From Romanomermis culicivorax (Eukaryota; Nematoda; Enoplea; Mermithida; Mermithidae): a DNA stretch of 64,000 nt. A program made the position numbers and the translations under genes. Within the stretch, counting starts at the first letter, position 1. Each line of letters opens with the position of its first letter. Of the stretch, positions 6,231-59,000 are shown piece by piece. The DNA is taken from NCBI GenBank assembly GCA_963922205.1, contig CAWUHX010000010.1, positions 1,550,001-1,614,000 of the forward strand. Direction: 5' to 3'. Under the pieces are notes generated by a model, which worked only from the letters and a program-made list of their open reading frames with translations, ran no database searches and had not been told where the DNA came from.

Positions 6231-7134
6231 CAGTGTTTTTTTTTGTGCCAAAACATGGTTTTTGGCACAAAAAAATTTGAAATGGCACAAAAAATTTTGG
6301 GCGTTTGTGCCAATTGGCACAAATTTTTTGACTAGTCGAATGCCGAATTTCTTTAATTTTCAGTCATTTTAGGGGCTGAAAACGCAAAATTTTCTCGGCG
6401 CTCCGCGCCGAGTCGTCAATTACTTAAGTGTACTATTAGTCAAATGTCAGGAATCTGAAAGAATTGTTTTCTAATAGTAGATTTGTATGATCGCAACAAA
6501 CCTTGAGATTGTCAATGATTGAAAAATGAATTAGTTAACTTCCACTGTTCATTCACTGTGATTGGAAACCGAAATTTTCATCTGTTTGATTCGAACAGAA
6601 AAATTTACCCTGTTGGCACAATTTTTCAACCAAAAATTTACGCGACGTGACTTCCGTTCTACTTTTTTCAGGAAAAATCATTATGGACATCCTTAATTTA
6701 TTTACATCGGTGTTATGAAGAAATCCGTAGCCGAAAATTAAAGAAAAATATAAAATGCCTGAAAAAAATAAACTAATAAACTAATAAAAATAAAATAAAA
6801 AATTAAAGAAAAAAAAATAGAAAAAAATGTATAAAAATTTCTGAATTCTCGCAGCATCTGATTTCTTTCCGAATCGTATAAACTGCTTTCTTCATCAGTT
6901 TTTCTTATCGCACTGACGTGCTTAAGATAAAACAGAGTTGGCACGATTTTTTATGCAAATTAGTGCGGCAAAAGTAACCTTTAGTTATGTACTTTTTATC
7001 AAACTTTTGGCATAAAACTTTTTAAAAGTTTTCAGTGTGTTTTTGGGCTGGAAAAAATTTTTCGTGCCATTGGCACAAATTTTTTTGGCCCTTTGTGCCA
7101 ATTGGCACAAATGTCCGTGCACAAAAAAACGCTG
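6231..7134. mobile_element. hAT-like MITE, TTGGCACAAA family, complete
   Basis: A 904-bp element with ends CAGTGTTTTTTTTTGTGCC and GTGCACAAAAAAACGCTG. An exact 8-bp target duplication GTTTCCAG lies at 6223-6230 and 7135-7142. Both subterminal regions carry repeated palindromic blocks of TTGGCACAAA/TTTGTGCCAA. The GC hairpin motif, here CTCGGCGCTCCGCGCCGAG, lies at 6394-6412. No coding capacity is seen. The 8-bp duplication and CAG ends are hallmarks of the hAT superfamily. Confidence 0.88.
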
Positions 7135-7152
7135 GTTTCCAGAGTCCAGACT

Positions 7153-7395
7153 GAAGGGTTATTTATACTTGCGTTTTCGGCGGAACGGAACGGAAAGGAA
7201 TCGGTACAACGTTACTGAACGAAAGGGAAATTTTCGTTCCGTTTGATTCGGTTCGACGTTACCGTCGGCCATTTTCTATAAAATTGCAGTTATCTTTTCC
7301 GATCGAAAGTGGATTTTCAGGCTGAACGTTTCAAACTGTTGGCGATCGGTTCCGTTCCGTTCCGTCGAGAAAGACAAGTATAAATGACCCTCAAG
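7153..7395. mobile_element. Short inverted-repeat element with GGAACGGAACGG ends
   Basis: About 40-bp imperfect terminal inverted repeats: AGGGTTATTTATACTTG on the left and CAAGTATAAATGACCCT on the right. Inside each lies a GGAACGGAACGG or CCGTTCCGTTCC block. No target duplication is obvious. It is a separate family from the hAT-like MITEs. Confidence 0.6.
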
Positions 7396-7447
7396 AATTA
7401 GGGACGAAGTGTTAGCCCTCTTTTGATTGGCCGAAATTACCGCCCCT

Positions 7448-7632
7448 CATACCTGTAAGACCTCCAATCAGTTGGGGGAGGGGATAGAAAAAATTCGAAA
7501 TTTTTCCCAAAAAAGGCCAAAAAACATCCGATTTTTTGCAAATTTTTTTAGTTTTTTTCAAACTGGGGGGGGGGGTTGGATGATTTTGGGTACAGGTTGG
7601 CAACCCCCCCCCCCCCCCCAAGTACAGGTATG
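7448..7632. mobile_element. Poly-G hAT-like MITE (CATACCTGTA ends)
   Basis: A 185-bp element starts CATACCTGTAAGACC and ends AAGTACAGGTATG, with G-run and C-run blocks next to each end. The flanks read CGCCCCT on the left and CGCCCCCT on the right, an 8-bp duplication that has lost one C. The same ends recur at 9913, 35616, 35619, 36741, 40424 and, as a remnant, near 44535-44650. Confidence 0.75.
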
Positions 7633-7695
7633 CGCCCCCTTGTTGATTAGTCAAAATTTTTGAGATGTTGAAAATCCATTTTATGCGTTTTAAAT

Positions 7696-7799
7696 GGTTT
7701 TAACTAACAACTTCATTTGGAAGAGCCCCAACAGTACCCTAAGTACCCTAAGGTTTTAACTAACAACTTCATTTGGAAGAGCCCCAACAGTACCCTAAG
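7696..7799. repeat. 48-bp tandem duplication
   Basis: The 48-bp unit at 7696-7743 (beginning GGTTTTAACTAACAACTTC) is repeated identically at 7752-7799, separated by TACCCTAA. Its core also occurs inverted at about 9117-9143 and in diverged form near 46140. Confidence 0.85.
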
Positions 7800-7926
7800 C
7801 CTAAGGAAAATTTTAAAAGAAAAATTAATGAGAAATACATACTAGGCGAAAAACCGTCTGGATGCGGTAATTTCGGCCAATTAGAAGAAGGCTTACACTT
7901 CGTCCTTAATGCTTAGTGGTTTCCAG

Positions 7927-9106
7927 CAGCGTTTTTTTGTGCACCGACATTTGTGGCAATTGGCACAAGGGCCAAAAAAATTGTGCCAATGGCACAAAAA
8001 ATTTTCTGCAGCCTAAAAACATACTGAAAATTTTTTAGAAGATTTATGCCAAATGTTTGATAAAAACAGAACTAAAGATACTTTCGCCGCGTTAATTGCA
8101 TAAAAATCGTGCCAACTCTACTTTATCCAAGCACGTCAGTGCGATAAGAAAAACTTATGGAGAAAGCAGTTTACGCGATTCGAAAAGAAATCGGATGCTG
8201 CGAGAATTCAGATATTTTTATAGAATTTTTTAAGCTTTCTGTATATTTATCTTTAATTTTCGGCTACGGATTTCTTCATAACACCGATATAAATAAGAAT
8301 TAAGGATGTCCATAATTGCTATCTCCTGAAAAAAACTAAGCCGAAAGTCGCATCGCGTAAATTTTCGGTAAGAAAATTGTGCCAACAATGTCAATTTTTC
8401 TGTTCGAATCAAACACCAAATAAAAATTCCGGTTTCCAATCACACTGAATGAACAGTGGAAGTTAACCATTTCTATTCATTTTTCAGCCATTGTCAATCT
8501 TAAAGTTACTTGCGATCATACATGCACGTGGGGGGGGTTTGACCCCAGCAGGTTTTTATTGACCCCCAGAAGATTCTTGCTGACCCCCAGCAGATTCAAC
8601 TTTTCCAGCAATGATTGAGAGGATGACGAAGGAAAATGAGCAAGAGAGAAAAAAAGTCGTCATAAAAATGGAAATGACTTTGTAGTTTGACAATTTTTCT
8701 AAACAAATCATACTTGATTCCAAAAAAGTAACATGGAAACTTTAAAAAGTGCTGTCTAAGCAAATTGTTTCACATATCTGACTAATATAGGTTGAAGAAT
8801 ATGCTGCTTGGATGTTAGAAGACTTTCTGAGACCTTTCTTTTCATTATCAAGAATGAAAGAAAAATTTGTATTCCACCCCCTGTCCTGGCTGACCCCCCG
8901 CAGAATTTCTATGCTGTGCATGTATGCTTGCGATCATACAAATGTACTATTCGAATACAATTTCTCAGGTTCTCGACAAACAAAAGTAACTAGTATATTA
9001 TATTTATTGCCTTCAGCCAGTCAAAAAACTTGTGCCAATTGGCACAAACGCACAAAAATTTTTGTGCCATTTCAAATTTTTTTGTGCCAAAAACCATGTT
9101 TTGGTA
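7927..9106. mobile_element. hAT-like MITE, TTGGCACAAA family, right-truncated
   Basis: The left end CAGCGTTTTTTTGTGCACCG is preceded by GTTTCCAG (7919-7926). The right side carries the family's subterminal repeats but breaks off at ATGTTTTGG before the final CACAAAAAACACTG. A second MITE (8517-8926) is nested inside. It is inverted relative to the copy at 6231-7134. Confidence 0.75.
8517..8926. mobile_element. CATACATGCAC-end MITE, nested
   Basis: A 410-bp element with perfect terminal inverted repeats CATACATGCAC/GTGCATGTATG and an exact 8-bp duplication CTTGCGAT at 8509-8516 and 8927-8934. Near each end are runs of GACCCCCAGCAGATT-like sequence. A related copy lies at 31950-32328, and a fragment lies near 28550-28690. 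Confidence 0.85.
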
Positions 9107-9189
9107 CGCTTTTGAGGCTCTTCCAAATGAAGTTGTTAGTTTAAAAAGTATCGAGGGTCTTAAAGGAATTTAGTGTCTATACTTTCTGA

Positions 9190-10290: not shown

Positions 10291-10369
10291 TCAAAAAAGG
10301 GCGGGGGGAAATTTTTCAAAATTTTTTTAGAATTTACCAAATAAAAAAAAATCATTTTTGTTTGCCGAA

Positions 10370-10853: not shown

Positions 10854-12350
10854 CACTGTTTTTTTCCCCAGCCCGGGCCTCTTTCCCAAATGGAGAATGG
10901 GGTAAAAATTTTCCTCCTCATTTTCCCGAAATTTTTTGCTTAAAAATGCTCTAGGTATTTTATTTAAGTGCCTGAGCTTTTTCAAACCTTCTGGTGTTTA
11001 GAGCTGTTAATCCATTAAAATTGAGAAAAAAATTGAAATTTTTGAGTTTGAAGTCTAATCTACAAGCACTGTTTTTTTCCATGAACTTTTTTCCACAAAT
11101 GTGGAAAGAGGTCAAATTTTTTTCCACACATGGAAAATTTTTTTGTCGATAATTTTTCGTCCTAAAATCCTCGTTTTTCGCTTGAAAATGCTCATAAACG
11201 CTTTATTTAAGTGTTTTTGAGCTTTTTAAAGCATTCTGATAATCATTCTGAACATATATCTCAAAAATTAGATTTAAATTTTGTGTTCATAAATCGTAGT
11301 TTCTAGAAATGTATCATTCGAAAAATTTTAAAACCATTAATTTGTTCGTAACCCTTCATAACTTTGGCCGAAAAGCTATGGGTCAGAAGCGTAGAAATTT
11401 TCCAGAAGCGTAGAAAATACTTCCATGAAGCTTTTGAATTCAATTTACGTTAAAAAAAGAACAAACGCTTCAAAAAGTTTAGAAAGTTGACGTGTTGATC
11501 CTTTTCATAAAATCTCTTAAGGAAAAAATGTGGATATCGTCATTAAATATAAAGATATAATATTCAATATTGCCAATTAAACATGAAATAATACGTTTAA
11601 GATTATGAAAACTATTAAAGGTTAAATGGTAAGTAAAGGTAGACATGCTAAAAGACGCGCCTGGGCTTGGTAATAAATAATACCTAATGAGTATCAAAGT
11701 TATAACCGGCGCGAAGCGCCGGAAAATTTTGAGATTTAGACCTCCTAAAATGCACCAAAATGTTTCTTTTCAATATGAAAACCCCAAATTTTTCTTCCAC
11801 ATTTGTGGAAAGACCTCAAAAGTTTTTTCCACATTCCAGATATCCACATTATAGTGCAATTGTGGAGAATAAAACAGTGTCTACAAGCACTGCGGAATGC
11901 GTTTTCCTACAAACTATCCAAGATCATAATGACATTGAATTAGTAAGAAAGTCCTCTATGATGACAAGTGAGAGCTCAAAAAAAAGATGTTTTAATTTTT
12001 TGGGTGGTTGGCATTCGGCGACGCTGGAAAATCAATTTTCCGAACATTTATTTCAATAATTAGATTCGAATTTTGTGTTCAAAAGTCGTAATTTCTAGAA
12101 TTTTATTTTTTGAAAAATTTTAAAACCAGTAGCTTATTCGCAAACTCTCATGAACTTGGCCGACTTATAGTAAGAAGAGTAGAAATTTTCGAAAACTACT
12201 TCCATAAAGCTTTTGAATTGATTTTACGTTAAAAAAGGAATAATGGCTTCAAAAAGTTTGGATACTTGATATATTGATCTTTCTCAAAAAATATGTCAAG
12301 CAAAAAATGCGAATCTTCATTAAATATCAAGATAAAAGACTTCTCCAATC
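10854..12350. mobile_element. hAT-like MITE with CCCC..GGGG ends, right-truncated, with nested insertion
   Basis: The left end is CACTGTTTTTTTCCCC, with a subterminal CCCAAATGGAGAATGGGG block. Core A then runs to about 12350, where similarity stops before a right end. The element is split by a complete MITE at 11067-11879; the host sequence reads continuously across it (CTACAAGCACTGCGG against CTACAAGCATTGTGG in the copy at 57175). Confidence 0.65.
11067..11879. mobile_element. hAT-like MITE, TTTCCACA/TGTGGAAA family, complete and nested
   Basis: An 813-bp element with ends CACTGTTTTTTTCC and AATAAAACAGTG. An exact 8-bp duplication TCTACAAG lies at 11059-11066 and 11880-11887. The subterminal palindromes are TTTTTTCCACAAATGTGG on the left and ACATTTGTGGAAA on the right. 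A perfect GC hairpin lies at 11706-11722. The interior belongs to core A. Confidence 0.88.
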
Positions 12351-12359
12351 ATAACTTGT

Positions 12360-14626: not shown

Positions 14627-25945
<11,319 letters not shown>

Positions 25946-26140: not shown

Positions 26141-26194
26141 AAATTAATGAGTCCGACATGTTCGATCTACGTTTTCTGTATCTATAGTTGATTT

Positions 26195-32328: not shown

Positions 32329-34432
32329 GGAGACCATGTTTTTCCCTTTTCTACTTTTAAATTTTTGAGTAAGTCAGGCTCGGGATCCTAGATAAAGAGT
32401 CCAATGAAGGCTTTAGGATCTTGACTAAGAATCAACTTGAACTCTCGGAAACCTTCCAAAGAAAACCCTGCTCATCTACGTACCATATGTATCGTTGTAC
32501 AGGTAGGCAGATGGGTGGCCCATGGCTGGACTTTGCCGGCTATCGGGCCTGACCTCTAGGCGATGGGGTAACCAGCTTCTGACCGCTGGCGGTGCGTTAC
32601 GCATCCACGGACCAAGTGCAAGGAGTTTTTTGTTTATAAATTTTACATTCATCCATTGGACATTTTCAATAAAGTGAGAATTTTAGAGGGCACTCGGAGC
32701 ACTGATAATAAAATTCTGAGAAAGGCACACATACCTGAAGTCGATATTTTTTTCATGCTTGGAGGATGACATTTTTACCTAACTTAAGGATCGATTATTT
32801 CTACCAGGAAGTGGAAGTCCTGCTAAATTCTGTTCAAGTTTCTCATATGAGAAAAAACGTTTTTTCGAACAAAATGGAAAATTAAAAAATTTGAGCACTG
32901 TATATTCTGTCATTTGCGTTTTAATGTTTATATACATTTGTTTAAATTTGTCAGAAATTCAAAATTATATGTCGTGTCTTGACAAATTATCAGCGAAACC
33001 CAAGATGTTCAGGTGTGGTGTACGCTAGTTAGCGTATTGCTAGGGAAAGTAAATTTCCACTTTCCACGTCATAAGTCATGGGACAAATTTACAGCATTTT
33101 TCGAAAAAAAGTAAGTCATGTGGAATTTTCTAAATGACACAGCTCGAATTAGAGAAGAACAGTATTCAAGCCTGCAAGTTTCAAATTCCAAGCTAGATTT
33201 GCAGGCTGACAGTAAGGCCCGAAAGTTAGCAGTTTATTAAATTGGAAATTTGAAAAAACTAGGGTTCACATTCCACAAAAAGCCCGTAACTTCCGCAATT
33301 TTGAGACTTCGATGAAAAAATTGTCGAAGTTTTTATATTTTCAAGACTCTGCACGAAATCTACACAGAATTTGGCCAAAATCTGAGGTGATCGAGCGGAA
33401 ATGCTTATCAAAATTAGACCACTTAGCGTGGAATAACTCCAAATATGATTTCGTAACTATTGGGATTCACTATTTTCGTAGTTTTATTTTGTCCATCATT
33501 GCAAGTTTGAAGATATGTTATTCACAAATCTGTATGATTGTGGTTTGTGATTGGCGCAGACTGCCGACAATCATGTTTGAACGGTTAAAAAAATTTACCC
33601 GTCGGGTATATATGCCTTAGTTTTACTGTCAATTGATAAATTTTCTCTTGCTTGTTCTCAGAGCAGCGTTTTTTTTTGTGCACGGACATTTGTGCCAATT
33701 GGCACAAAGGGCCAGAAAAATTTGTGCCAATGGCACAAAAAATTTTTTCCAGCCTAAAAACATACTGAAAACTTTTAAAAAGTTTTATGCCAAAAGTTTG
33801 ATAAAAACATAACTAAATGTTACTTTTGCCGCACTAATTTGCAAAAAAATCGTGTCAACTTAATTTTTTGTTAAGCACGTCGGTGCGATAAGAAAAACTG
33901 ATAAAGAGAGCAGTTTATACCATTCGGAAAGAAATCAGATGCTGCGAGAATTCAGACATTTTTTTACAATTTTTCAGGCATTTTACATTTTTCTTTAATT
34001 TTCGGCTACGGATTTCTTCTTAACACCGATGTAAATAAATTAAAGGTGGCCCTAATGATTTTTCCTGAAAAAAACTAGAACGGAAGTTACGTCGCGCAAA
34101 TTTTTGGTCGAAAAATTGCGCCAACAAGGTAAATTTTTCTGTTCGTCGAATCAAATACCAAAAATAAAAATTTCGGTTTCCGATCACACTGAATGAACAG
34201 TCGAAGTTAACTAATTCATTTTTCAATCATTGAAAATCTCAAAGTTTGTTGCGATCATACAAATCTATTAAAGAATACAATTCTTTCTTCAGATTCCTGA
34301 CTCTTGACTAATATTACACTTGAGTAATTGACTCGGCGCGAAGCGTTTTCAGCGTCAGCCCCTAAAATGATTAAAAATCAAAGAAATTCGGCATTTGACT
34401 ACTCAAAAAATTTGTGCCAATTGGCACAAACG

Positions 34433-35483
34433 TAGGGTTGGCAAAAACCCAGTTTTTGAAATCTTCATTTTTGGGTTTTTGGGTTTTTTGGTGGGTTTTT
34501 CTGGGTTTTTCTGGGGTTTTGGTGGGTTTTTCTGGGTTTTTGGTGGGGTTTTCTAGGGTTTTTGTTCCAGTTTTGTACTAATGAATGATCATTTTACTTA
34601 AAATATATATGAGAATGTTATTTTTAACGTATAAAGTGTATTAAATTGCTGAACAGTGTTCAAGACTGACTATACATTTGGTTGTAACATATTTACACGA
34701 GTCACTCGACTGCACATTGCACAACGATTTTATCGATTTGGCTCATTAAAACGATTGGCTGTTTATTGAATTTTTTATTGCATGATCTAAACACTAAAAT
34801 TGAAATGTCACTTTAAAAAATTGAAAATTACGGAAATCAAATTTCACGCTTCGGCTTCGCTCACTTCATCAGATTCACAGTCACGGGAACTTTCTAGCAG
34901 CCCAAAGTTTGTCTTAACGAATACCAGTTTGCGCACTGTTTCCGTCGACAATTGATTTCGCAGCTTGGAATGTATGAAGCCATAGCCAAAGGTAGAGAAG
35001 TTTCTTTCCGAAGATGCGGTAGAGACAATTAGCGAAAAAACCTCAATTAATTTTTTATACATGTACTACATTGAAACAAACAACATGTTATCTATGTACC
35101 TTCAGAGCGATTCGTTGCACCAGCGGCCAGTCAGCTCCATCTGTGAGCCAATACTCAAGGACAGACTTTTTCTTTTTGACGAGCATCTGGTAGCGAAATG
35201 AGTTATTTTGTTTTTGTAATTTTGCCTCAATCATGTATTGCGTCAATTCTTGATACACAGCACTTTTTTGGTCAGCTAGTTCTGGATTTGCCACAGGGAA
35301 ATTAACGATGAAATCCTCAATCTCGTTCTGGATTTGACACAGGGAAATTAACGATGAAATCCTCAAATTAACGATGAAATCCTCATTTTAAAGAATTAAG
35401 AAAAACCCAAAAACCCAAATTTTGTCAAGAAAATGCACCCAGAAAAACCCAAAAACCTAAAAATCCAGGTCTTGCCAACCCTG
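34433..35483. mobile_element. hAT transposon, internally deleted, with transposase 3' end
   Basis: A 1051-bp element with ends TAGGGTTGGCA and TGCCAACCCTG. An exact 8-bp duplication CACAAACG lies at 34425-34432 and 35484-35491. The subterminal regions are arrays of GGGTTTTT/AAAAACCC. It contains the C-terminal part of a hAT transposase on the minus strand and must have lost the N-terminal two thirds. It is the only element in the window that still encodes a hAT domain, so it identifies the superfamily directly. Confidence 0.93.
34844..35366 (-). pseudogene. hAT transposase C-terminal fragment (hATC dimerisation domain), two exons
   Basis: Read on the minus strand, the segment above 35100 ends YWLTDGADWPLVQRIALK. 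A GT-AG intron of 58 bp (35042-35099) joins it to VFSLIVSTASSERNFSTF, followed by IHSKLRNQLSTETVRKLVF and a short acidic tail ending at 34844. SERNFSTFG and IHSKLRN are signature residues of the hATC dimerisation domain. The BED finger and the DDE catalytic region are absent, so it cannot be an active transposase. The intron keeps the frame, so the 3' exons may not have decayed much. The 5' end shows an 18-20 bp tandem duplication (TTAACGATGAAATCCTCA, three times, about 35301-35384). Confidence 0.9.
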
Positions 35484-35618
35484 CACAAACGCCCAAAATT
35501 TTTTGTGCCATTCCAAATTTTTTTGTGCCAAAGACCATGTTTTGGCACAAAAAAAAAACTGTCTCAGAGTTTTTTTTTTGTGCACGGGTGAGTAGTGGAC
35601 ATTTGTGCCAATAGGCAT

Positions 35619-36705
35619 CATACCTGTACTTGGGGGGAGGCATATCTGTACTTGGGGGGGGACCCCCCCATAACTTGGCCAACCCAGTACCCAAAATCAT
35701 TTCCCCCCCCCAACCCCCCCAGCGTTTTTTTTTTGTGCACAGACATTTGTGCCAATTGGCACAAGAGGCGAAAAAATTTATGCCAATGGCACAAAAAAAT
35801 TTTTTCTACTAGCAACATACTGAAAACTGCGGAAAAATATTAGGCCAAAAAGTTTGATCAAAAGTTAACGTTTAACGCATTAATTTTTTGTAAAAAATAC
35901 CTATTTTTCAGCTGACCATGTCATTGAGGTAAGAAAAAACTGTGCAGGAAAACAGTTCACGACGAAATGGATGCTGAGAAATTTTAATCAACTCCAGAAT
36001 TGTTCAAGAAATTCAAACTGATTTAATTCTTGACTACGAATATAAATATCAACAATGTAAAGACTAGAGAAAATAAAGTCAAAAATTGTGTAAATTTACG
36101 GTCGAAACATTGTACCATTACCAACGATATCGATTTTTCTATTGATTCTATTTGAATGAATCAAACACAAAAAGGGAAAACTTCAGTTTTAAATCCGAAC
36201 CTGATTGAATGAACAGAGAATATTCAGAATTTCTTTTCATTCATCAGTCGTTGACTTGATGGCAGCCTATAGAGTTTGCTGCAACGACACTAATACACTG
36301 TTCGGAGGGAAATCATTCGCGTTTGGGTTAAATATACGAATAGAAAATATTATATTCGTTAACTCGGCGCGAAGCGCCGAAAATTTTTTGCATTTTCAGC
36401 CCCTAAAACGTCTAAAAATCAAGGAAATTTAATGTTTGACCAGCCAAATTTTTTGTGCCAATTGGCACAAACGCTCAAAATTTTTTGTGCCATTCCAAAT
36501 TTTTTTTGTGCCAGAAACCATGTTTTGGCACAAAAAAACACTGCCCCCCCAGTTTGGAAAAAATTAAAAAAATTTCCAAAAAAGTGTATGTTTTTTGGCC
36601 TTTTTTTGGGAAAAATTTCGACTTTTTTTCTACCCCCCCCCCCCCCCCCCAATTTCGGATTTACCCCCCCCCCCCCCCCAACTGGTCGGAGGTCTTACAG
36701 GTATG
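35619..36705. mobile_element. Poly-G MITE nested in an older poly-G MITE
   Basis: Starts CATACCTGTACTTGGGG and ends GGTCTTACAGGTATG, with an exact 8-bp duplication ATAGGCAT at 35611-35618 and 36706-36713. It is itself split by the TTGGCACAAA element at 35720-36543. A second CATATCTGTACTTGGGG start at 35641 indicates duplication of the terminal segment. Confidence 0.8.
35720..36543. mobile_element. TTGGCACAAA-family MITE inserted in a poly-C run
   Basis: An 824-bp element from CAGCGTTTTTTTTTTGTGCA to TGGCACAAAAAAACACTG. It sits inside a C run of the host MITE, so the duplication reads only as C's and its length cannot be fixed. A GC hairpin (CGGCGCGAAGCGCCG) lies at about 36364-36380. The core matches 13139, 46600-49270 and 33664. 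Confidence 0.8.
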
Positions 36706-36992: not shown

Positions 36993-38006
36993 CACCGGTT
37001 TTTTTTCCTCGAAGATTTTTTCCACATGAGAACCGGACCCAAAATTTTTTTCCTCATTTTTAAAAACGTTTATAATGTGGCTACGGATGCTTTTTTATGC
37101 ATTTTATGAGCATACCCATGCATTTCGTTGTATTTGTAGTCAGAAACCTGCAAAAATGAGGAAAAAAAATGAGAAAATTATGGTTATGTTAGTCAAAAAG
37201 AGCCCATGATGAACATATTGGTGTTCTATAGGAGCGGATAAAGCAAGTTAACGATAGAGTTGTCATGAATTTATCCGCTATCAACATTACTGTGATTCCG
37301 ATTAGAATCATCTAATTTTATTTAGTTCCTGGTCCGGCGCGAAGCGCCGGAAAAATGTTTGGATGTTTACTTTCTAAAACGCTGGAAAATGAACCTTCAT
37401 AACGTTGGGAAATAAATTAAAATCAGACGGATGAAGTGTAATTTGCTCCCCATTCTGGCGCGAGGCGCCGGAATAATTTTCTTGTTTTTATATTCTAAAA
37501 CGCTTAAAAATAAATCTCTCCAACAGGTAATTCGTGAACAAAAGTTTTAAAATCGCAGTCTAAAATGATGTCTTTAATTTCCACTTTCAATAAACGCAAA
37601 AGTTCAGATTGCAAACGTTTAAAAAATTCCAATCATAGAGAGAAAAAATTGATGAAAATTGATGAAAATTGATGAAAAATCTCTCCTTTCAGCGACATAA
37701 TTGACTGTAAACGATTAGAAAATGAAACGAGCTAGCTTGATTGATAGAAACTGTTGAGCATTAATTAGTAAGTCGAAGTAGATATGCTAACGGCCGCGCC
37801 TGATAGAATATAGTTATCATTATACCCATGACCGGCGCGAAGCGCCGGAAAATTTTGAGATTTCGACCTTTTAAAGTCCTCCAAAACGCATCTTTTCGGT
37901 TTAAAGTTCCCTAAATTTTTTTTCACAATGAGAACCACACCCAAAATTTTTTTCCTCATTTCGAAATTTTTTTCCTCAAAAGACCCCATTTGAGAAAAAA
38001 ACGGTG
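36993..38006. mobile_element. hAT-like MITE, CACCG ends with CCACATGAG subterminal motif
   Basis: A 1014-bp element with ends CACCGGTTTTTTTTCCTC and GAGAAAAAAACGGTG. An exact 8-bp duplication CACCCAAC lies at 36985-36992 and 38007-38014. Subterminal words are CCACATGAGAACC and TTTTTTTCCTCATTT. Two perfect GC hairpins lie at 37334-37350 and 37832-37848, with a third variant near 37455. A triplicated ATTGATGAAA lies near 37650. No ORF of note. Confidence 0.9.
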
Positions 38007-38171: not shown

Positions 38172-39035
38172 CAGGGTTTTTTTTGCACAGGCCAGGTTGC
38201 AATGTACAACTTGGGGAAAAATTTTGGTTGCACAGATAAACTTTTAGTTGCTCACTCTAAAATCGATAAATTTGCTCAAATTTATCGGAAAAACCATTGC
38301 AAACAAGTTTTCTTGACATTTCATTCGATCCGCGTCGGTTTTAGGCACTTAAAACCCAATTTTTTGAGTTTTAGAGATCAAATGAAAAAGTTAATATGAC
38401 TAGACTAGAGTAATTAGTTCGGCGCATAGCGTCGAAAATTTTTTTTGGATTTCAATATTCTGGAACGCTGGAAAATGAATCCTTTCACATTTTATTTCCC
38501 AGACAGAAGGTTTGATTTCTCGGTAAATTTAATGAATTTTCGGTGGGACAAACTGAAATCCAAAAACTAGGCAAGCGGCTTTCAACCGCCAAAAATTTCT
38601 AGCATTGTCTTACACTCAAAATGTTTTAATCACATGAAAGTCAAAATTCAAATTTTTTGTGAAGATCGCAAAAAATTTTGGGAAAATTATCGAGAAAAAG
38701 GTTGGTTTTTATCAATTTCGTCAAAAAACAATACAGGATCAAACATTTAACCATAATATGGTGATAATTAGAACCTTTAAGCACTAACTAGAATGACCTT
38801 TTCTAACCGCGCACTAGAATAATATAAAAAATTATTAATGAATTGAAACCCTGCGCCAGGCGCCTGAAAATTTTCACTTTTTTCCATTTTAGAACGCATA
38901 AAAATGCATCTCCGGACAGAAAATCCAATAACCTTATCAAAAGAGCAGTCAGGCCTCAAGTTGCTCTGTGCAACTTGGCAGAAAAAATCTGGTTGCACAG
39001 CCCGAAATTTGGTTGCTGTGTGCAAAAAAACCCTG
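38172..39035. mobile_element. hAT-like MITE, GGTTGCACAG family, core B
   Basis: An 864-bp element with ends CAGGGTTTTTTTTGCACAG and TGTGCAAAAAAACCCTG. An exact 8-bp duplication CTTACAGG lies at 38164-38171 and 39036-39043. The subterminal repeats are GGTTGCA and TTGCACAGN, arranged as short palindromes. The core is shared with 10370-10853. Degenerate hairpins lie near 38420 and 38852. Confidence 0.9.
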
Positions 39036-40124: not shown

Positions 40125-41362
40125 CACTGTTTTTTCCACCGGGGCCTTTCCACCAAATGGGGAAAGGGGTCAGAAATTTTTTCCCTATTTTCCCCGAAGT
40201 CGTTTTTTCGGTTAAAAATGCTAACAGACCATTATTTAGGTATTTTTGAGCTTTTTCAAGCCTTCTGGTACATTTAGAGCCGTTAATTCAATATAATTGA
40301 GGGAAAAATGAAATTTTCGAGTTCAAAGTCCTAATCTAAAAGCATTGTCGAACAAACTTTCAAGCAAAATATCCAAGAAGAGCATAATGACTTTGAATTA
40401 CATGAGAAATCGATAGTCAAGTCCATACCTGTAAGAGGTCCGACCAGTTGGGGGAAGGGTAAACCCAAAATTTTGGGGTGGGGGTTCCAACATTTTCAAA
40501 ATTTTGGGGAGGGGGGTCGAAAAACCCCCAAAAAAGTCGAAAAATTACAAAAATTTTCCCAAAAAAAGGCCAAAAAAAATCATTTTTTCTTAATTTTTCC
40601 AAGTTTGGTGGAGGGTTGGATATAGGGTTAACCAAGTTGGGGGTGGAGGTCCTCCCCCCAATTACAGGCATGGTTAAGTCCTCTATGATGACAAGTGAGA
40701 ACCCAAAAGAGATGTTAATATATCCGGCGCCTGGTGCCGGAAAGATTTTTTGGGTATTGACATTCTGCGACGCTGCAAAAGCGATTTTCCGAACATTTAT
40801 TACAAGAATTAGATTTGAATTTTTTGTTCAAAAGTCGTCATTTCTAGAATTTTACTTGAAAAACTTTAAAACCAGTATATAATTTTTTTGTAAACTCTCA
40901 TTAACTTGGTCGAAAATATATGAGTAAGAATAGTATAAATTTCCGAAAGATATTTCCATGAAGCTTTTGAATTGATTTGACGTTAGAAGAGAAATAATAG
41001 CATCAAAAAGCTTAGAGACTGACTTGACGTTATTGATCTTTCTCAAAAGGAAAAAATGACCAATGAAAACTTGAGATAACGTTTAAGATGATGAAAACTA
41101 TTATAGATTAAGTGATAAATGAAGGTGAAAGTGCTAAAAGCCGCGCCTGAGCTAAGTAATGCATAATAATGATTATTAAAGTTATAACCATCACCAGGCG
41201 CCAGAAAATTTCAAGATTATGACCTTCTAAAATGCGCCAAAATGCATCTTTTCTGTATCTGATACCCAAAATTTCGTTCCCCAAATGGGGAAAGGGCCCC
41301 GAATTTTTTTCCTTTTCCGAATTTTTTTTCCCCGAAAAAGCACGATCTGGAGAAAAAACGTG
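40125..41362. mobile_element. hAT-like MITE, CCCCAAATGGGG family, core A, with nested poly-G MITE
   Basis: The ends are CACTGTTTTTTCCACC and GGAGAAAAAACGTG. The flanks AATCCAAG (40117-40124) and AATCAAAG (41363-41370) form an 8-bp duplication with one mismatch. The subterminal palindrome is CCAAATGGGGAAAGGGG on the left and CCCCAAATGGGGAAAGGG on the right. Hairpin variants lie near 40724 and 41190. Net length without the nested MITE and its duplicated 8 bp is about 981 bp. Confidence 0.8.
40424..40672. mobile_element. Poly-G MITE nested in core A
   Basis: A 249-bp element from CATACCTGTAAGAGGTCC to ATTACAGGCATG. The flanks GTCAAGTC and GTTAAGTC form an 8-bp duplication with one mismatch. Related core A copies at 51029 and 57543 show the empty site (GACGGTTAAGT), confirming the insertion point. 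Confidence 0.85.
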
Positions 41363-46805: not shown

Positions 46806-47823
46806 CACTCTTATTTTTCCCCCAAATCGTGCTTTTTTGGGGAAAAATCGGAAAAGGGAAAAAAATTTTGGGCTCTTTCCCAATTCGGGGAAGAAAATTT
46901 TGGGAATCAGATACAGAAAAGATGCATTTTGGAAAGTCCAAAGCTCAAAATTTTCCGGCGCTTGGCGCCGGTTATAACTTAAATAATCATTATTATGTAT
47001 TACAATCTAGCTACGGCGCGGCTTTTAGTATGCCTACGTTCACTTATTATTCAATCTATAATAGTTTTCATCATCTTAAACGTATTATCTCATATTTTAA
47101 TTGGTAATATTCAATATTTTATTTTGTAATTTAATTTGATGAAGATCCGCATTTTTCCATTCGCGAATTTTTGGAGAAAAATCAGTCGTGTGTAAACTTT
47201 TTGAAGCGATTATTCCTTTCTTAACGTAAAATCAATTCAAAAGCTTCATGAAAGTAGTTTTCAGAAATTTCTACTCTCACTCATATGTTTTCGGCCAAGT
47301 TCATGAGAGTCAAGTTTACGAATACAATACTGGTTTCAAAATTTTTCAAATAATAAAATTTTAGAAATTAATACGACATTTGAGCAGAAAATTCTAATCT
47401 AATTTTTGAAATGAATGTTCGGATAATTGATTTTCCAGCGTCGCAGAATATCAATGGTCGAAAAAAAATTTTCCGGCGCTCGGCGCCGGTATACATCTTT
47501 TTTGGGCTCTAATTTGTCATCATAGAAAACTTCACCGTCGATTTCTCATCTCATGTAATACAAATTCATCTCTTGGATAGTTTGCTGAAAGTTTGTCCCA
47601 CAATGCTTGTAAATTAGACTCCAAACTCGAAAATTTCAATTTTTTCCTCAATTTTAATGAATTAAGGGACCTAAAAACACTAGAAGGTTTGAAAAAGCTG
47701 AAAAAACACCATAAAAAGCGTCTATGAGCATTTTAACCGAAAAAACGACTTCGGGAAGAGGGGAAAAAAATTTTGACTCTTTCCCCATTTGGGGAAAAGA
47801 CCGGCGGGAAAAAAGAAACAGTG
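46806..47823. mobile_element. hAT-like MITE, CCCCAAATGGGG family, core A, reverse orientation
   Basis: A 1018-bp element with ends CACTCTTATTTTTCCCCC and GGGAAAAAAGAAACAGTG. The flanks CAACCTAT and CAACATAT form an 8-bp duplication with one mismatch. The subterminal palindrome CCCCATTTGGGGAAAAG lies near the right end. Two GC hairpins lie at 46955-46971 (CCGGCGCTTGGCGCCGG) and 47473-47489 (CCGGCGCTCGGCGCCGG). Confidence 0.85.
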
Positions 47824-47984
47824 CAACATATTATTCAGCTAACCACGTCAGTGAGATAAGAAAAACTGTGCAACACAACATTTCACGACAACTCAAAAAG
47901 AAGAAAATTTAAATAGCTCTATAATTGTTGAGGAAGTTCAAATTTATCAATTTTCGACTAAAAATATCTATACTATATATGTAT

Positions 47985-48975: not shown

Positions 48976-49274
48976 ATATGTATATTTAACAACAATGTAT
49001 GTGAAGACTAGAGAGAATAAAGTCGAAAATCGTGTACATTTTCGATCGAAACATTGTACCATCAACGATATCGATTTTTCTATTTGAATCAATCAAACAC
49101 AAAAAAGTTTAAAATCCGAATCTGACTGAATGAACAGAGAATATTCAGAATTTCTTTTCACTCATCAGTCATTCACAGCCTATAAAGTTTGCTGCAATGA
49201 TACTAATGCAGTGTTCGGAGAGGAATCGTGCGCGTTCGGGTCAAATATACGAATAGGAAATATTATATTCATTA

Positions 49275-50245: not shown

Positions 50246-50671
50246 AATGGAGTCAAACTGCCATTAGCCGCACTGCTAATAGGTGTGTCGCTGAAAAAAA
50301 CACACTGGTCAGAATTTAATCCTGCAACATATTTTGTATTTTCACATTTGTGTGACTAAAACATTTTGAGTTCAAGTAGAAATTGTCGCTGGCTGAAGAA
50401 TCGAAATTCTTGGTTACCTAACTTTCCTATTTTTTTAATTGTATAGTCTGCCCGACTGAAAATTCATTGAAATCATTGAAAAATTAAACCTCTTGTCCAG
50501 GGAATAAAAGTTGAAAAGATTCATTTCGGGCACCTAGCGCCGAGAAATTCTCCCAATTACAGGTACATTAGTACTTGAGAAAGACGACAAACATGTTTCC
50601 ATGGCGCGGAAAAATACTGTCGTGAAAAAGTAAATCTACCTGTTGGTGTAGAAATCGTTTTCAGAAAACGA
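50246..50671. other. Core B remnant and short unique sequence
   Basis: About 50300-50530 matches core B in reverse style (ATTGTATAGTCTGCCCGACTG, GAAAAGATTCATTT) and ends at a decayed hairpin (GGGCACCTAGCGCC). No gene. Confidence 0.5.
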
Positions 50672-50679: not shown

Positions 50680-51769
50680 CAGGGTTTTTTTGACCTACGA
50701 GTCACAAGCCAAGTGGCTTGTTGACCAAAAATTTTACAAGCCATTCCAAATTTTTACAAGCCGATTTAATATCAGTATACGTGAATAAATTCCAATGCTA
50801 GGTTATTTTTTAAAGAAATGTATATATTGAGCATCACGGCAATCGATCAAAAAAGAGATGTCCAACATTTATTCAATAACATTTTAGAGCCGTTAATTCA
50901 TTAAAATTCAGGAAACATTTGAAATTTTTGAGTTTGATCGAAGTCTGATCTACAAGAATTGTGGAAAAACATTTTTCAGCAAACTATCGAAGAACATAAT
51001 GACTTTGAATTACAAGAGAAATTGACGGTTAAGTCTTCTATGATGACAAGTGAGAGCACAAAAAAGCTATTAATCTTTCCTGCCTGAAACACTGGAAAAA
51101 TTTTTTGGGTATTGACATTCTGCGATGCTAGAAAATCAATTTTCCAACCACTTATTTCAAGAATTAGTTTCGAATTTTCTGTTCAAAAGTCGTAATTTCT
51201 GGAATTTTATGTTTGAAAAATTTTAAAACCATTAATTTATTCACACACTCTCATGAACTTGGCCGAAAAGATATGAGTAAGAAGAGTAGCAATTTCCGAA
51301 AACTACTTCCATGAAGCTTTTGGATTGATTTTACGTTAAGAAAGGAATAATCACTCTAAAAGGTTTACAGACTTGACGTATATTGATCTTTCTCAAAAAA
51401 TGTGAATCTTCATTAAATATCAAGATGAAATATTGAAGATTACCAGTTAAAACATGAGATAATACGTTTAAGATGATTAAAACTATTAAAGATTAAATGA
51501 TAAATGAAGGTAGACATGTTAGAAGCAGCGCCTGAGCTGGGAAATAAATAATAATGCTTATTTAAGTTATAACCGGCGCGAAGCGCCGGAAAATTTTGAG
51601 ATTATGACCTTCTAAAATAAACCAAAATGCATCTTTTCTGTATCCGATATGATCAAACACATGACTCAAAAAATTCTGACAAGCCATTTTGGCTTGTTGG
51701 ACTAAAATTCTACAAGCCATTTTGTCAGTCCAACAAGCCATGGCTTGTAAAATGCTAAAAAAAACTATG
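50680..51769. mobile_element. hAT-like MITE, ACAAGCC/GGCTTGT family, core A
   Basis: A 1090-bp element with ends CAGGGTTTTTTTGACC and GCTAAAAAAAACTATG. An exact 8-bp duplication TCCACGGG lies at 50672-50679 and 51770-51777. The subterminal palindromes are ACAAGCCAAGTGGCTTGT on the left and ACAAGCCATGGCTTGT on the right, with further ACAAGCC words at each end. A perfect GC hairpin lies at 51573-51589. The core is colinear with 57175-58179. Confidence 0.92.
51573..51589. repeat. GC hairpin motif CCGGCGCGAAGCGCCGG (reference copy)
   Basis: A 7-bp perfect stem with a GAA loop, directly followed by AAAATTTT. Other copies, perfect or one-off: 6394, 10774, 11706, 36364, 37334, 37832, 46955, 47473, 48350, 48837, 50111 and about 58053. 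Decayed copies lie near 9760, 23310, 34335, 37455, 38420, 38852, 40724, 41190, 41659, 45605, 48473, 49629 and 50530. Nearly all sit inside the hAT-like MITE cores. Confidence 0.9.
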
Positions 51770-53085: not shown

Positions 53086-56000
53086 ATGGCGAAATACGAT
53101 TTAACTTGTAATATGAGTCAATATTTCGATCCTCATATGGTGATCCCGTTATTCGAATTTCTGTCCGAAAGGGAGGTTAGTTTTTCTTAGCATTGCCAAC
53201 ATTTTTTGTCTACTTATGTTTTGCTCAAGATATATGATGAAAAACATATTCTGACGGCTAAGTTGGAATTGTTACGCAATACGAATATGGTCGATTTTTC
53301 CATAGAAACTTTTGAACAGCTTCACGGAGAATCCGTAGCCGTTCCCCAAGGTAAGCTTGCCCAATATTTCAATTTCAGCAAAATTTGCATGCAAGTATTA
53401 CCGTTTTCTTTCAAGAGTAAATAAAACCTAATACTAAAATTCATACCTTAATATATAATAATCCTATCGTAAGACTCTAAATCGGGAAATATGTATGTTT
53501 TTTTTTATTCGAGAATTGAAAGACCGTCGAAATGTTGTCATCGAAAAATTGAAATCCATGCATGCTCAAACCGAAGTTATTGTCAACATTTTAGAGGATA
53601 AAGAAGTCAACGATTTAATAAAAAAGAAGTAAGATTTCCGTCACACACATACAGAACAAAAATATCGATGAATATGTTAATAAAAATTTATGTTTGATTT
53701 TGTTATATACAAATGTGTGTGCTTTAGAGATCGTGATGGTAGACAACTGTTGGATCATCTTACACAAAAATTTGATGTAAGTTTTAACACAAGTAAATTT
53801 GTTGGCTATTATTATCAATTAGAGATGTATCGCGGACCCTGACTCGAAATTACCCCACCATTTTGTTGGGCCCGGACCCGATATTCTCAAAATTTTGGAC
53901 CCGATATATCTCTATTATCAATCAAATCGTTTTTCAGTTTCATCCCGATATGCTCGATATGATGTATAAAGCTGCTAAATTCCAATTCGAATGTGGCAAT
54001 TATTCGGCTACCGCCGAGTATCTCTACTTTTATCGGTTATTGGTCGTCGTAAGTTTGTTGAGATTTCGGTTTTTTCTGTTAAAATTTTAGAGATTTCATT
54101 GTTTTCAGTCGCCTCAACAAAATGAACATTATTTAAACGCATTATGGGGTAAGTTGGCTTCCGAAATTTTGGTGCAAAACTGGGACGACGCCAGAGATGA
54201 TCTGAACCGTTTAAAAGGCTACATTGATACAAATGTGAGATTTTATACAGGATGTACTCGTACATTATTTCAAAGAAACGTAAATTCTTCTTGTGTGCAA
54301 AGTTGGAATGTAGACAGATGGGAAACCGATTTACTATTCTGTCGTAGACACTAAAATAAAATTTCTTGAATTTAGTCCTACTTTTTCTTTTTTTCAGTTC
54401 TTCTATAGTTATGTTTTCCTCTCCGTTCTAGACGTTTGAATCTGAACTTGAATTGCTGCATCAAAGAGCTTGGTGGATACATTGGAGTCTGTTTGTGTTT
54501 TTTAATCACCCGAAAGGTCGCGACGAAATTATCGAGCAATTGCTGATGAATAACAAGTAAATAAAAATGCATTATAACACTTGTCTACAGCCTACATACA
54601 TGTAGAACAGTTCCCTGACGTCCTCTTGTGGGGGGGGGGAGTGAACCAGGGATTTTTTTCCGCACAGTGCGGATTTTTTTGGGGTCGTGCGGAAAATTTT
54701 TCTAGAGTTTTCCGCACGGAACGGAAACTTTTTAATGTTTTTAGTGGTTTTTAACGGTGGTGCGAAAATTTTTCTGGCAGATTTGCGCAAGGTGCGGAAC
54801 GACCGGTGCGGAAAAAGAAAACCCCGGTGTGAACTGATACATCTTATTTGGTACAGAGGGTAGGAGTTGTCAGTTAAAGCGAATTTTTGCATCAAAATTT
54901 GTTTAAAATGACTCAAAAATACGTGTTTTAGACCCTAAAAACCCATAAAATTCTATCTTGTCAAACATTTTTGATCAAAATTGGCTTAACCTAAACACTT
55001 ATGTTTTTTCTAGATGTTGCTCTGATAGTGGTGGAGTTCAAACAACTGTCCTGAGTTTGGGTATTCCTTTGACTTATGCCAAGGGGAGCTCTCATAGCAC
55101 TTTACACCAGTGATGCCGGGCTCAAATTTACAACGGCTGTGTCTTCTTTTTCAAACTGATGAAAAACTAGCATAATTGGAGTGGTTGTGTGCTTGGCAAT
55201 CATCTCGTGAATACTCCCCGTCTTTTTGGAATACAAGGCCGAAATTTATTGATCTCGTTTTTTATTCTGTATCAGGAATCGTGGAGTTTTCCCTATTCTA
55301 ATTGAAATGTTGCAGTCGGTATTTGCTTCTGGACATATTCTATCAATGTGACTAGATTTTAGCGAGCTGTAATGACAAGTGGGTAGTAATTCATCTAGAA
55401 TATCTGTTCGGAGTGACTAAAGAAAATTGAAATTATGTATTAAGCAAGAACCTGAGTTAAATTTCTGACAGATGAGTGTAAATAAGTAAATCTTAATTAT
55501 GCTTCCTAATATGTTACGTAATTACTGAATTAGATTCTCAAGTCTATTCAAGAGTACCTTACTAAATTTCCTACTCAATAGACGAATAAAAATTTTAGTT
55601 TAGCAATGCCGGTCCAAACTTCTGGAATTAATGACTGTTGAATATTCGAAAAGATGAGACATCTAGATCGGCTGATTTTTTTCCATTGCTGAATCACTTC
55701 CTGAAAAGGATGAAAATTTCAGTAGTAGACTGTTTGATGTGATGTTCATCTTTCCATAATAGCAGAGAAAGTCCAACTATTTCCCCACCGGGCCCGGTCG
55801 ACCACTGCTTTACATCCCGAAATGCAAATATGCTTGTCAAATTTAATTAACGATTTTTCAGTTATTTAAATACAATTCAAATTTTGTGTCCTCACGTTTT
55901 GCGCTATTTGACGGCTGCTGTTGTTGTGAACAAGAAGAGGCGACAAGTTTTGAAAGAATTAGTTTCGATAGTGCAATTGGTAGGTTGATTTTACACTTGT

Positions 56001-59000
56001 GTCGTTCCTGTATTAGGATTACTTTTCCGGGGCATACGCTTCATTAAATTTTCAAGTACGCTAGATATGTTTTACTCAAATAATTATTGTTGAAAAAATT
56101 TGGTTCCAAACATTTTCTCTTTTGTGAGAATCATTGCCTTTCTCTTATCGTGTTTGTGAATTTTTTATTCTTTCTTTCCCTAGGAATCTTATCACTATAA
56201 GGATCCTATAACAGAATTCGTAGAATGCTTGTACGTTAAGTATGATTTCGATATGGCGCAACAAAAACTACGTGAATCGGAGCAGGTAAAATTTTATTTC
56301 GTACGAAATTCACATTAACGCTTATATTTGTCGTAGGTTCTCGTCAATGATTTCTTTTTAACGTCATTATTAGAAGATTTTATGGAATCAGCTCGACTTC
56401 TGGTATTCGAAATGTATTGTCGGATTCACCAGTGCATTAGCATTGAGTAAGAAATTTGAATTTGATTGGCTTAGGGTTTTCCTTTTATAACCTTTGTGAT
56501 TATTGAAGTTTTCTTATTTCCGTCCAATGTTTCTGGGAAGTAAGCTTTCCAAGTTTAAATTCTTAAATTATACGTGCTATAGGGCGTTCCTTGGCCCACA
56601 GAAAACAGAGTAATGTTACATTACCGTTTTTCCCATTGGGCCTCTTTTACACAGAAACTTGCATAAATGTGCACAACAATGGAAAGTTGGCCTGTACATG
56701 ATCTAAGCAAAAACAAAGGATGTAAGCATCATTTGATAGAATCAACATATATCAAAAAAGTACCTCGTGTTAGGAAAGACTGACGTTTACAGTACACTGC
56801 TTTAGATATCAAATCAGACAGCTTCAAACTTACTCTAAATTTAAAATTGTGTGTATTCCAAACATGAGATCGAGGATTATTCACACGAGCATTATTGCAG
56901 TTTTCTAGGTGGTCTGTCGAATACAAGTTTTGATATTAAATATGCTCCAGTGTTTGCTCAGATCAGTACTGTTTGTCACATTTATGCAAATTTCAGTGTT
57001 ACCAATGTCTGACAGAAAAAATACTTCTGCGACGTTACTCAAGTTGTAATACACTGTCGAATACACTACAATATGTTTTTTTGTTCTTCATAATTTAATT
57101 TTTTTGCTTTTTATTTTGGTTATTTCTCGAATGGTCTCAGGTATTAAATGACAATGGAAAGTGTGACACCTATGCAGTGTTTTATTCTGCACCCGGCTTT
57201 CTGCACGGTGCAAAAAAGTCAAAAAATAGATTCTGCACTACGGTTTGCTCCTGTTACCACTGTTTTCCCCCGGGCCTTCTCGTCACCAAACAAGGGAAGG
57301 AGCCAAAATTTGTCTTCCCATTTTCCCGAAACCGTTTTTCGATTAGGCATGTTCATAGACGCATTATTTATGTATTTTTGAGTTTTTCAAACTTTCTGCT
57401 GTTTTTTAGAGCCGGTAATTCATTAAGATTGAGGAAACATTCGAAATTTTTAAGATTGATCGAGGTCTAATCTACAAGCATTGTGGAACAAATTTTCCAG
57501 GAAACTATCCAAAAGCATAATGACTTTGAATTACATGAGAAACTGACGGTTAAGTTCTCTATGATGACAAATGAGAGCCCCAAAAAAAATTTGACATTCT
57601 CCGACGCTGAAAAATCAATTTGCCGAACATTTATTTCAAGAATTAGATTCGAATTTTCTATTCAAAAGTCGTAATTTCTAGAATTTTAGATTTGAAGAAT
57701 TTTAAAACTAGTAATTTCTTCGCAAACTCTCATGAACTTGGTCGAAAAGGTATGAATATGAAGAGAAGAAATTTCCAAACACTACTTGCATGAAGCTGCT
57801 GGGTTGATTTTACTTTAAGAAAGGAATAATCGCTTCAAAAAGTTTACAGACTTGACGTATTGATCTTTCTCAAAAATGTGTCAAGGAAAAAATGCGAATC
57901 TTCATTAAACATCAAGATGAAATATTGAAAATTACCACTTAAAACATGAGATAATATGTTTAAGATCTATTAAAGATTAAATGATAAGTGCAGGAAGATA
58001 TGTTAGAAGTCACGCATGAGCTAGGAAATGAATAATTATTATTAAAGTTACAACCCGCGCGAAGCGCCGGAAAATTTCGACGTTAGGACCTTCTAAAATG
58101 TACCAAAATGCATCTTTTCTGTATCCGATGTGATCAAAAACATGACTGAAAAAGTCTGCATTGTGCAGAAAAAACACTGCACCTATGAATCTCTATAGTA
58201 ATCATTCTCAAATAAGCATCAAAAAGCAACATAATCCGTCCAATAGCTGACAGTAAACCTGCATCGTACACCTAAATCTTTTTTCTCGACTTGTTTGCCT
58301 AACTGCCACAGCCCACTCAACAAAAAAGATGTCCGCATACGCAGGTTGTTTATTATTCCCATGAAAGTCTTTGTGCTCGTCGAGGCTCATTTCGAAAAAA
58401 TAGACTATATCTTGTAGCGGGTCAATAAGTACGTTTTATAGCAAAATAAATTCTTATGAAATTTGGGCTGTGTTCGACTGCTCCTTTGAAACAATGCGTT
58501 CTAAGACGTTGTTCCGTTAATTGACATCCATGATTTTGCATTTGCAGGCATCTTCCGTTTATATTTTTACCAAATTTGAAATTTGTTTAGCAATATCGCA
58601 GAAAAGCTGAACCTGACACCCGAATTAGCCGAAAAATGGATCGTCAATTTGATAAGAAATGCTCGATTAGACGCTAAAATTGATGCTAAACTAGTAAAAA
58701 CAACCACTGTTTACTCTACTGTTTTTAATATGAGAGTATGTGTTCTTGAAACTTATACGTTTCCTTCAAAAGCTTCTGTACTTGTCAAATTTCGTGAAAA
58801 GATCTTTTGGCTAAAAAGAAATACATAACAGTTGAACGTGATACTCTCCAGACCTGACTAAATCTTTTTGAACCGTGATGAATTTTTATCGATGTATAAA
58901 GTAAGCAACTATTGTTCCAGGGTCACGTTGTCATGGGCACTAAGTCGGCGAGCGTTTACGAGCAAGTTATGGAAAAAACAAAGCTTTTGTCTTTGCGGGC

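Follow-up and report, generated by a model that had tools for sequence, protein, structure and literature searches.

Short interspersed elements (SINEs) pair a common core with the tails of different long interspersed elements (LINEs), and thereby borrow recognition sequences from several autonomous elements. Here we describe a DNA transposon lineage with a comparable habit: core A, a core of ~750 bp that recurs in miniature inverted-repeat transposable elements (MITEs) within a 64,000-nucleotide stretch of the nematode Romanomermis culicivorax (contig CAWUHX010000010.1, positions 1,550,001 to 1,614,000; hereafter the window), under ends that carry different short subterminal words. Core A resembles the SINEs in appearing to be one non-autonomous lineage with several partners, but SINEs are retroelements and change their 3' tail only. 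The closest precedent is the CMITEs of corals, which the part of the source cited here presents as MITE families with different terminal inverted repeats (TIRs) and an internal region more conserved than the TIRs, one new element having arisen by MITE insertion, one family having been matched to an autonomous element, and the origin of the core being called unclear (PMC2872659). Core A is likewise conserved across families with different ends, but whereas CMITEs are piggyBac-like elements of ~100 bp with TTAA sites and a 75-bp core, the window elements have neither TTAA target sites nor piggyBac ends and show 8-bp duplications instead; relative to that part of the source, core A adds an empty site, relic ends and conservation of word spacing, allows events to be ordered, and has a large copy number (6221 first-look candidates) (PMC2872659). 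MER6, as far as the cited part of its description goes, is a composite MITE in which a SINE-derived core was moved between Mariner ends; it is one composite, whereas core A would represent serial re-ending over several related transposon families (PMC6887750).

Two further systems concern how such ends are recognised. The portion of the Hermes work drawn on here describes zinc-finger BED domains that bind short subterminal repeats beside A/T-rich DNA, with two repeats forming a quasi-palindrome and an arrangement that differs between the two ends (PMC10368747). Binding of this kind offers, by analogy, a mechanism for the arm layout reported below, although Hermes has a single kind of word (AAGT/AAGC) in one element, while we find many words, one spacing and a different finger, PF25431. 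According to the cited part of the work on CGG-binding proteins, hAT DNA-binding domains are diverse in preference, and where a member is encoded by a hAT, its motif corresponds to subterminal regions of that transposon (PMC8097297); that work used protein binding arrays across species, whereas here a series of words with conserved spacing stands in one genome. Among the papers listed in our searches of the open-licence literature, none was a precedent for layered relic ends or for conserved spacing with changing words, and as far as these searches reach, the layered record of re-ending, the empty site and the spacing kept beside paralogous transposase genes are new.

The window is part of a genome of 359,112,060 bases in 595 contigs. 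An initial annotation of the window had proposed that core A occurs with at least four end modules, and this holds with room to spare. Elements near 11, 46, 50 and 57 kb align with one another over 806–1070 columns at 68–80% identity, and in pieces with the element near 40 kb; together with the first-look candidates from a genome search with the element at 57175 (42 matches among 40 scored of the 6221), this excludes chance similarity. Five end types accompany core A in the window, TGCAC, ACAAGCC, CCCC, CCAC (TTTCCACA) and TTTGCAC, and a sixth, GTACA (TTTGTAC), was met in sampled loci outside the window only. In 26 of the 42 matches the similarity spans just query positions 230–979 or less, i.e. 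the core without its ends. For core searches we used positions 57404..58153 (+) of the same element. Stretches of 7 kb were fetched at 20 of the 42 match places, chosen deliberately rather than at random, and together with the window and later loci they supplied 44 core segments, each 300 bases or longer; every core copy stems from the window or from a similarity search, and the set is selected, not random. The elements have the attributes of MITEs, being short and non-coding (no frame of 150 amino acids lies inside the core A elements), with TIRs, target site duplications (TSDs) and high copy number.

The origin of one end type, TGCAC, could be dissected against an empty site. TGCAC composites read, in order, a ~83-base TGCAC arm ending CCTGTTAC, a CCCC-type terminus (CACTGTTTTTTCCCCCGGGCC...) and core A (Table 1 gives the window instance). 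L066 is a TGCAC element without core A, with TSD CTGCAGAC, and represents the empty site: it reads ...CCTGTTAC followed directly by AATAAAATAATAG, where the composites read ...CCTGTTAC followed by CACTGTTTTTTCCCC. On their right side the composites continue through core A as far as ...TCTTTTCTGTATCCGA, where they join the inner part of the TGCAC arm; compared with L066, the old right end is missing, as are 181 bases of the host's interior. In genome counts that allowed up to 2 mismatches, the filled TGCAC/CCCC junction has 553 copies (reversed-pattern control, 6) and the matching empty site 166 (control, 2). The relic CCCC terminus, the empty site and the lost right side are as expected if a CCCC element inserted into a TGCAC element and a deletion followed, and we conclude from these sequences that at least one end type was gained by nesting plus deletion. 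A competing and simpler account would have the ends inherited with their cores, the words drifting without any replacement; for TGCAC it is refuted, as judged from the relic end and the empty site, since the old CCCC terminus survives inside the new TGCAC end and TGCAC elements free of core A exist. Nor does drift sit well with the ACAAGCC elements, which on one side have a spacer of ~120 bp without match in the other arms.

Layering recurs in two other end types. The ACAAGCC-TGCAC junction has 955 genome copies (control, 0), an inner piece of the TGCAC arm being retained in the ACAAGCC arm, and part of the CCCC arm is found inside the TTTGTAC arm. By analogy with TGCAC, we infer that the ACAAGCC and TTTGTAC ends were also acquired through nesting and deletion; the sequence of L011 can be read as a TTTGTAC core A element that holds a nested TGCAC copy, with part deleted, which is the proposed intermediate. 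One could also suppose that recombination or gene conversion swapped the ends at common A/T-rich stretches. The sequence just inside the last word (AATTTTTTGAGTCATGTGTTTGATCA) is indeed common to ACAAGCC and TGCAC, with the join near a AATTTTTT run, the TGCAC-copy core of L011 continues into a TTTGTAC end as crossing over between cores would give, and arm and core of the TTTGCAC type point to different parents. The TGCAC left junction, however, falls exactly at the first base of the old element, beside host interior, a placement expected from insertion but not from recombination, and on the core tree every end type is either one group or the paraphyletic parent of others; we regard recombination as a doubtful explanation.

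That tree, a maximum-likelihood tree of 31 core copies (13 of the 44 segments had too little coverage and were left out, and the labels of L010 and L011 were assigned by hand), also bears on the order of events. Comparing a tree of cores with a tree of ends had been suggested with the initial annotation; the comparison was carried out in part, by mapping end type on the core tree, which takes 6 changes for 7 labels, the minimum, against a mean of 15.8 for shuffled labels, with 0 of 200 shuffles as low. ACAAGCC (support 100/99), TTTGCAC (100/100) and GTACA (100/99) are well-supported groups, and so is a clade of TGCAC, ACAAGCC and TTTGCAC with one hybrid (100/97), while GTACA and CCAC copies are placed among CCCC copies. 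Terminal branches are shortest in ACAAGCC (0.0025–0.041), longer in TGCAC (0.048–0.087) and longest in CCCC (0.079–0.12), and on this measure ACAAGCC is the youngest end type; of its 13 complete copies, 12 are flanked by a TSD that is exact (11 copies) or differs at a single base. The tree leaves the backbone within the TGCAC clade open, so the derivation of ACAAGCC from TGCAC draws on tree and relic together and not on the tree by itself.

The arms themselves carry four or five words each, and the word differs by family while the spacing is asymmetric yet common, at roughly 14, 9 and 23–25 bp on one arm and 20, 23 and 9 on the other. Calling U the arm that adjoins the gene start in L071 and D the opposite one, second and third words start 20–21 bases apart in eight of nine U arms (16 in CCCC); in D arms the first two words start 14–15 apart in 11 of the 12 having both, and an inverted word starts at 33–38 with a direct word 21–25 further in, in 12 of 14. 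The mean positional distance between families is 2.49 in U against 4.55 ± 0.46 for random placements, and 2.57 against 4.74 ± 0.42 in D, with 0 of 500 placements as low in either arm; this null ignores kinship of the families, the words were compiled by reading through the arms, some of them as degenerate or family-specific patterns, and the GTACA U arm, with fewer than three words found, was left out of the U test. Spacers are identical at 0.765, compared with 0.698 ± 0.010 when shuffled (maximum 0.726 of 100), and word columns at 0.714. The ends are thus not unrelated modules: common spacing and spacer likeness suggest that the arms are probably related and that the word was altered concertedly, in all copies together. 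It is very unlikely that the spacing reflects convergence of unrelated arms, or is a by-product of T-/A-rich, low-complexity ends. The spacers are A/T-rich, word and spacer identity are nearly equal and the scan words were picked by eye, all of which would suit that explanation, but the word positions agree better than any random placement on either arm, the difference between the two arms is alike across families, and coding paralogues have the same layout.

The same likeness between arms is where simple divergence gains most ground. Most of the length of the CCCC, CCAC and CCTC arms can be aligned, at about 66–74%, with the word altered at every copy; the TGCAC and TTTGCAC ends can likewise be aligned for the most part with every copy of the word changed, and both sets look more like the outcome of divergence, with the words changing in concert, than like exchange. 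For CCCC, CCAC and CCTC divergence appears to be the better account. The excess of spacer identity over shuffled spacers speaks for it as well, as does the mixture of CTGCAC and CCGCAC words within single arms of L075, L076 and L078, although as an explanation of the whole series we consider it unlikely.

Coding relatives accompany several of the words. Starting from the inner portion of the empty TGCAC element, a search that gave 50 matches (40 of the 645 candidates being scored) led to longer TGCAC elements with gene pieces, L069–L071, each with a C-terminal exon and with TSDs CTCATAAA/CTCGTAAA, TCAACTGG and CAACCAAC, respectively; L071 also has an N-terminal piece starting MSSQKTINSFF. The C-terminal exon has 42 matches, 8 at 66–100% identity and 34 at 32–54%. 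Ten of the 34 distant paralogues were read, on one side each, and all ten end in a T-run arm, nine found by pattern at 240–373 bases from the start of the fetched piece and that of L076 by eye. Their words are CCGCAC in L072, the word of the 180-bp element at 54647, CTGCTC in L073, L074 and L079, TTTGTAC in L080 and L081, and TTAGCGC in L077; the mixed arms of L075, L076 and L078 are what an intermediate in a change of word would show. The N-terminal part in L082, which has 89 matches, contains a zinc finger (PF25431, E 1.2e-7, above cut-off), and an N-terminal match lies upstream on the same strand for 17 of the 42 C-terminal matches, 15 of them 1.7–2.4 kb apart, where chance would give ~0.015 (computed for 50 of the 89). 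The fingers at C27 (CTGCTC), C96 (CCGCAC) and C205 (TTTGTAC) can be aligned yet have diverged. As a separate observation, the N-termini at the gene start, QKTINSFF in L071 and QKDISNFF in L082, resemble a PCNA-binding (PIP) box.

The 8-base duplications, CANNG termini, subterminal repeats and zinc finger fit the hAT superfamily, and we call the group hAT-like as its likely placement. Sites of 8 bp are also used by the P element and KDZ/Zisupton superfamilies; no THAP or KDZ Pfam family was seen in the N-terminal 223 amino acids or the exon pieces. The N-terminal finger is of a kind present in hAT genes, as the hAT gene at C90 has the same PF25431 finger, just below cut-off. At C205 a weak DUF4371 match (26.7 bits, below the cut-off of 32.1) lies between the N and C exons, and a protein database search for the transposase returned no scored match. 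Ordinary hAT genes are abundant (PF05699; 1837 first-look candidates, 150 listed), but among those listed none lay at partner-gene loci when compared by eye, nor did their positions correspond to those of the ends listed; a search with the hAT protein of L059 gave 54 places (52 of 261 candidates scored), none of them at partner-gene loci either. We rejected these standard hAT genes as partners, as several of the families read (the reads being L029–L058, L059 and L061–L068) carry other subterminal words (such as CGGATCC, ATATCCG, CTCCGC, TTTGCGGCCC, AAACCT and AAACCG); others had no clear word, and no T-run end was clearly the hAT's own. Two further candidates were rejected: L038 as autonomous partner of GTGCGGAAA, where the end is that of a ~194-bp MITE inserted there and flanked by a duplication of its own, CAACGAAC, and the hAT remnant at 34433–35483 as partner of TTGGCACAAA, since this remnant is an independent nested insertion that has a different TIR and a separate duplication. 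L059 itself (G000:C77:1205800-1210800) has an open 864-amino-acid hAT-type transposase gene, TSD AAGAGGTT, word TTTGCGGCCC and further full-length copies at 89–98%.

We propose, with a probability of roughly 0.7, that one core A lineage was re-ended several times with the words of different transposase families of this hAT-like group. Each autonomous family would recognise a short word of its own, repeated four or five times in each arm, presumably through the zinc finger of the neighbouring gene, with the composites being moved by those proteins and core A being a passenger fitted repeatedly with new ends. A CCCC-ended core A element would have landed in the interior of a TGCAC element, the old right end and part of the host interior would then have been lost by deletion, and the composite, with only TGCAC arms outside, would have been mobilised by the TGCAC family and amplified to the junction copies counted above. 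Later a member of the TGCAC clade would have acquired ACAAGCC ends and amplified in turn, and another line from the older CCCC stock would have acquired TTTGTAC ends, the geometry of the protein-DNA complex being kept while the DNA-reading domain changed its word. The initial annotation had framed re-ending as exchange of modules. Its central idea survives in that there is one core lineage, with ends of different words, each founder amplified and coding relatives with some of the words; clean module exchange does not, as the sole dissected case is an insertion into an element of another family followed by deletion, and several ends taken to be different can be aligned over most of their length, suggesting divergence. 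A wider proposal, to which we would give slightly less than an even chance, is that a whole clade of transposases in this genome holds the arrangement of about ten binding sites fixed while the site itself is rewritten repeatedly, in all copies together, and that non-coding parasites such as core A keep pace when elements of the next family engulf them.

Several points weigh against the proposed re-ending of core A. A single junction, on the 5' side of TGCAC, was dissected against an empty site, and as the right TSD was lost by the proposed deletion, the insertion is deduced from one exact terminus. In the scans only 2 of 8 TGCAC composites are flanked by a TSD with no more than one mismatch, perhaps because of age. 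The inner side of the TTTGCAC arm is by eye closer to the CCAC arm, yet its core lies in the TGCAC clade, a conflict that may hint at recombination there, and the differences among CCCC, CCAC and CCTC and between TGCAC and TTTGCAC can be plain divergence. Exceptions to the D layout are GGTTGCAC, which fits poorly, and the L077 arm, which has the opposite (U) spacing. Of the seven words in the initial annotation, coding relatives were found for two, TGCAC and GTGCGGAAA, and none for ACAAGCC, TTGGCACAAA, GGTTGCACAG, TTTCCACA and CCCC, nor for TTTCCTCA and TTTGCAC, with ten of the 34 distant paralogues read, on one side each. The gene reads behind the likely hAT placement cover the N-terminal part and exon pieces. 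Finally, the copies were chosen by likeness to one core or because they accompanied hAT-domain or other fetched loci, and the tree took in 31 of the 44 core segments.

If the wider proposal is true, the words are locks that autonomous families change and MITEs pick anew, in an intragenomic arms race, and the mixed-word elements L075, L076 and L078 are half-way steps. The record of core A touches on two open questions: how MITEs survive beyond their autonomous partners, and how a transposase changes specificity when up to ten sites have to change. A single genome here offers an ordered series of re-endings, one empty site, and paralogous transposase genes beside different words at similar spacing, and binding and excision assays could address both questions directly.

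The window elements behind this analysis are listed in Table 1. Twelve boundary pairs, selected after scans and by reading, were examined: the 8-bp duplication is exact in eight, has one mismatch in three and is absent in one. Where the initial annotation counted "at least twelve" such elements, eleven are found here, the pair without a duplication being 35720–36544; the palindromic words that the annotation named are present on one strand or the other. Its element at 33664 is real but is a single element reaching 35561 with the hAT remnant nested inside, and that at 11067 sits within a second core A element. A strict scan of the window gave 6 exact pairs and 1 one-off pair, against 0 exact and 0–2 one-off in ten shifted controls; one of the exact pairs, 6318–9034, is an artefact whose "duplication" is the palindromic word CCAATTGG. 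In a looser scan of the window and 20 loci, 22 of 47 pairs were exact, against 0–6 of 17–27 in eight shifted controls. Exact duplications stand far above background and are thus informative; one-off pairs taken by themselves are not, and the case for the three one-off elements lies in the agreement of their two arms.

Table 1 Transposable elements and parts of elements identified in the window
Feature	Position	Strand	Remarks
Core A element, TGCAC-type ends	57175..58179	+	Exact TSD CACCTATG
Relic of older CCCC-type terminus (CACTGTTTTCCCCCGGGCC...) within outer TGCAC end	57258..57360	+	Inner limit approximate
Core A element, ACAAGCC-type ends	50680..51769	+	Exact TSD TCCACGGG
Core A element, CCCC-type ends	46806..47823	-	TSD with one mismatch, CAACCTAT/CAACATAT
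Core A element, CCCC-type ends, with G-rich insertion of ~250 bp	40125..41362	+	TSD with one mismatch
Core A element, TTTCCACA (CCAC) ends, within another core A element	11067..11879	+	Exact TSD TCTACAAG
Host core A element split by the 11067 insertion	10854..12337 (approximate)	+	CCCC-like end at 10854; 3' part not found
Core A remnant, TTTGCAC-type end	22666..23340	-	Terminus at 22666; second end not found
GTGCCA (TTGGCACAAA) element	6231..7134	+	Exact TSD GTTTCCAG
GTGCCA (TTGGCACAAA) element containing nested hAT remnant	33664..35561	-	Exact TSD TCTCAGAG
Nested hAT remnant, TIR (C/T)AGGGTTGGCAA	34433..35483	-	Exact TSD CACAAACG
GTGCCA (TTGGCACAAA) element	35720..36544	+	Poly-C flank, without usable TSD
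CACCG-type element, word TTTCCTCA	36993..38006	+	Exact TSD CACCCAAC; 3' part of core A in common
GGTTGCAC-type element	38172..39035	+	Exact TSD CTTACAGG
CCGCAC (GTGCGGAAA) element, 180 bp	54647..54826	+	TSD with one mismatch, GAGTGAAC/GTGTGAAC; right limit by eye

The nested hAT remnant contains a Dimer_Tnp_hAT fragment (PF05699, E 4.1e-6, 26.9 bits against a cut-off of 21.4) and GGGTTTTT repeats lie close to its two ends. Scanning the window for Rfam families and tRNAs gave no matches, and pieces of a ubiquitin-specific protease-like gene, with a match below cut-off, lie at 18323–18994 and about 14785–14931. Large repeats of another type, at 4079–6036 and 26193–28352, occur in both orientations and reach 73–80% over 0.7–1.3 kb. 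The CACCG-type neighbours 47976–48976 and 49264–50246 are 94.7% identical over 1004 columns and look like a local tandem duplication. A G-rich repeat, CATACCTGTAAGA..., is inserted in several elements (about 7448, 9913, 36741 and 40424–40672), the copy in the 40125 element being flanked by GTCAAGTC/GTTAAGTC. Finally, a GC hairpin, GGCGC-NNN-GCGCCGNAAAATTTT, is found in the cores of otherwise different element types; with up to 3 mismatches it occurs at 25 places in the window, where 0.02 would be expected, among them 6387, 10776, 11708, 37834, 38421, 46947, 47465, 51575 and 58056.

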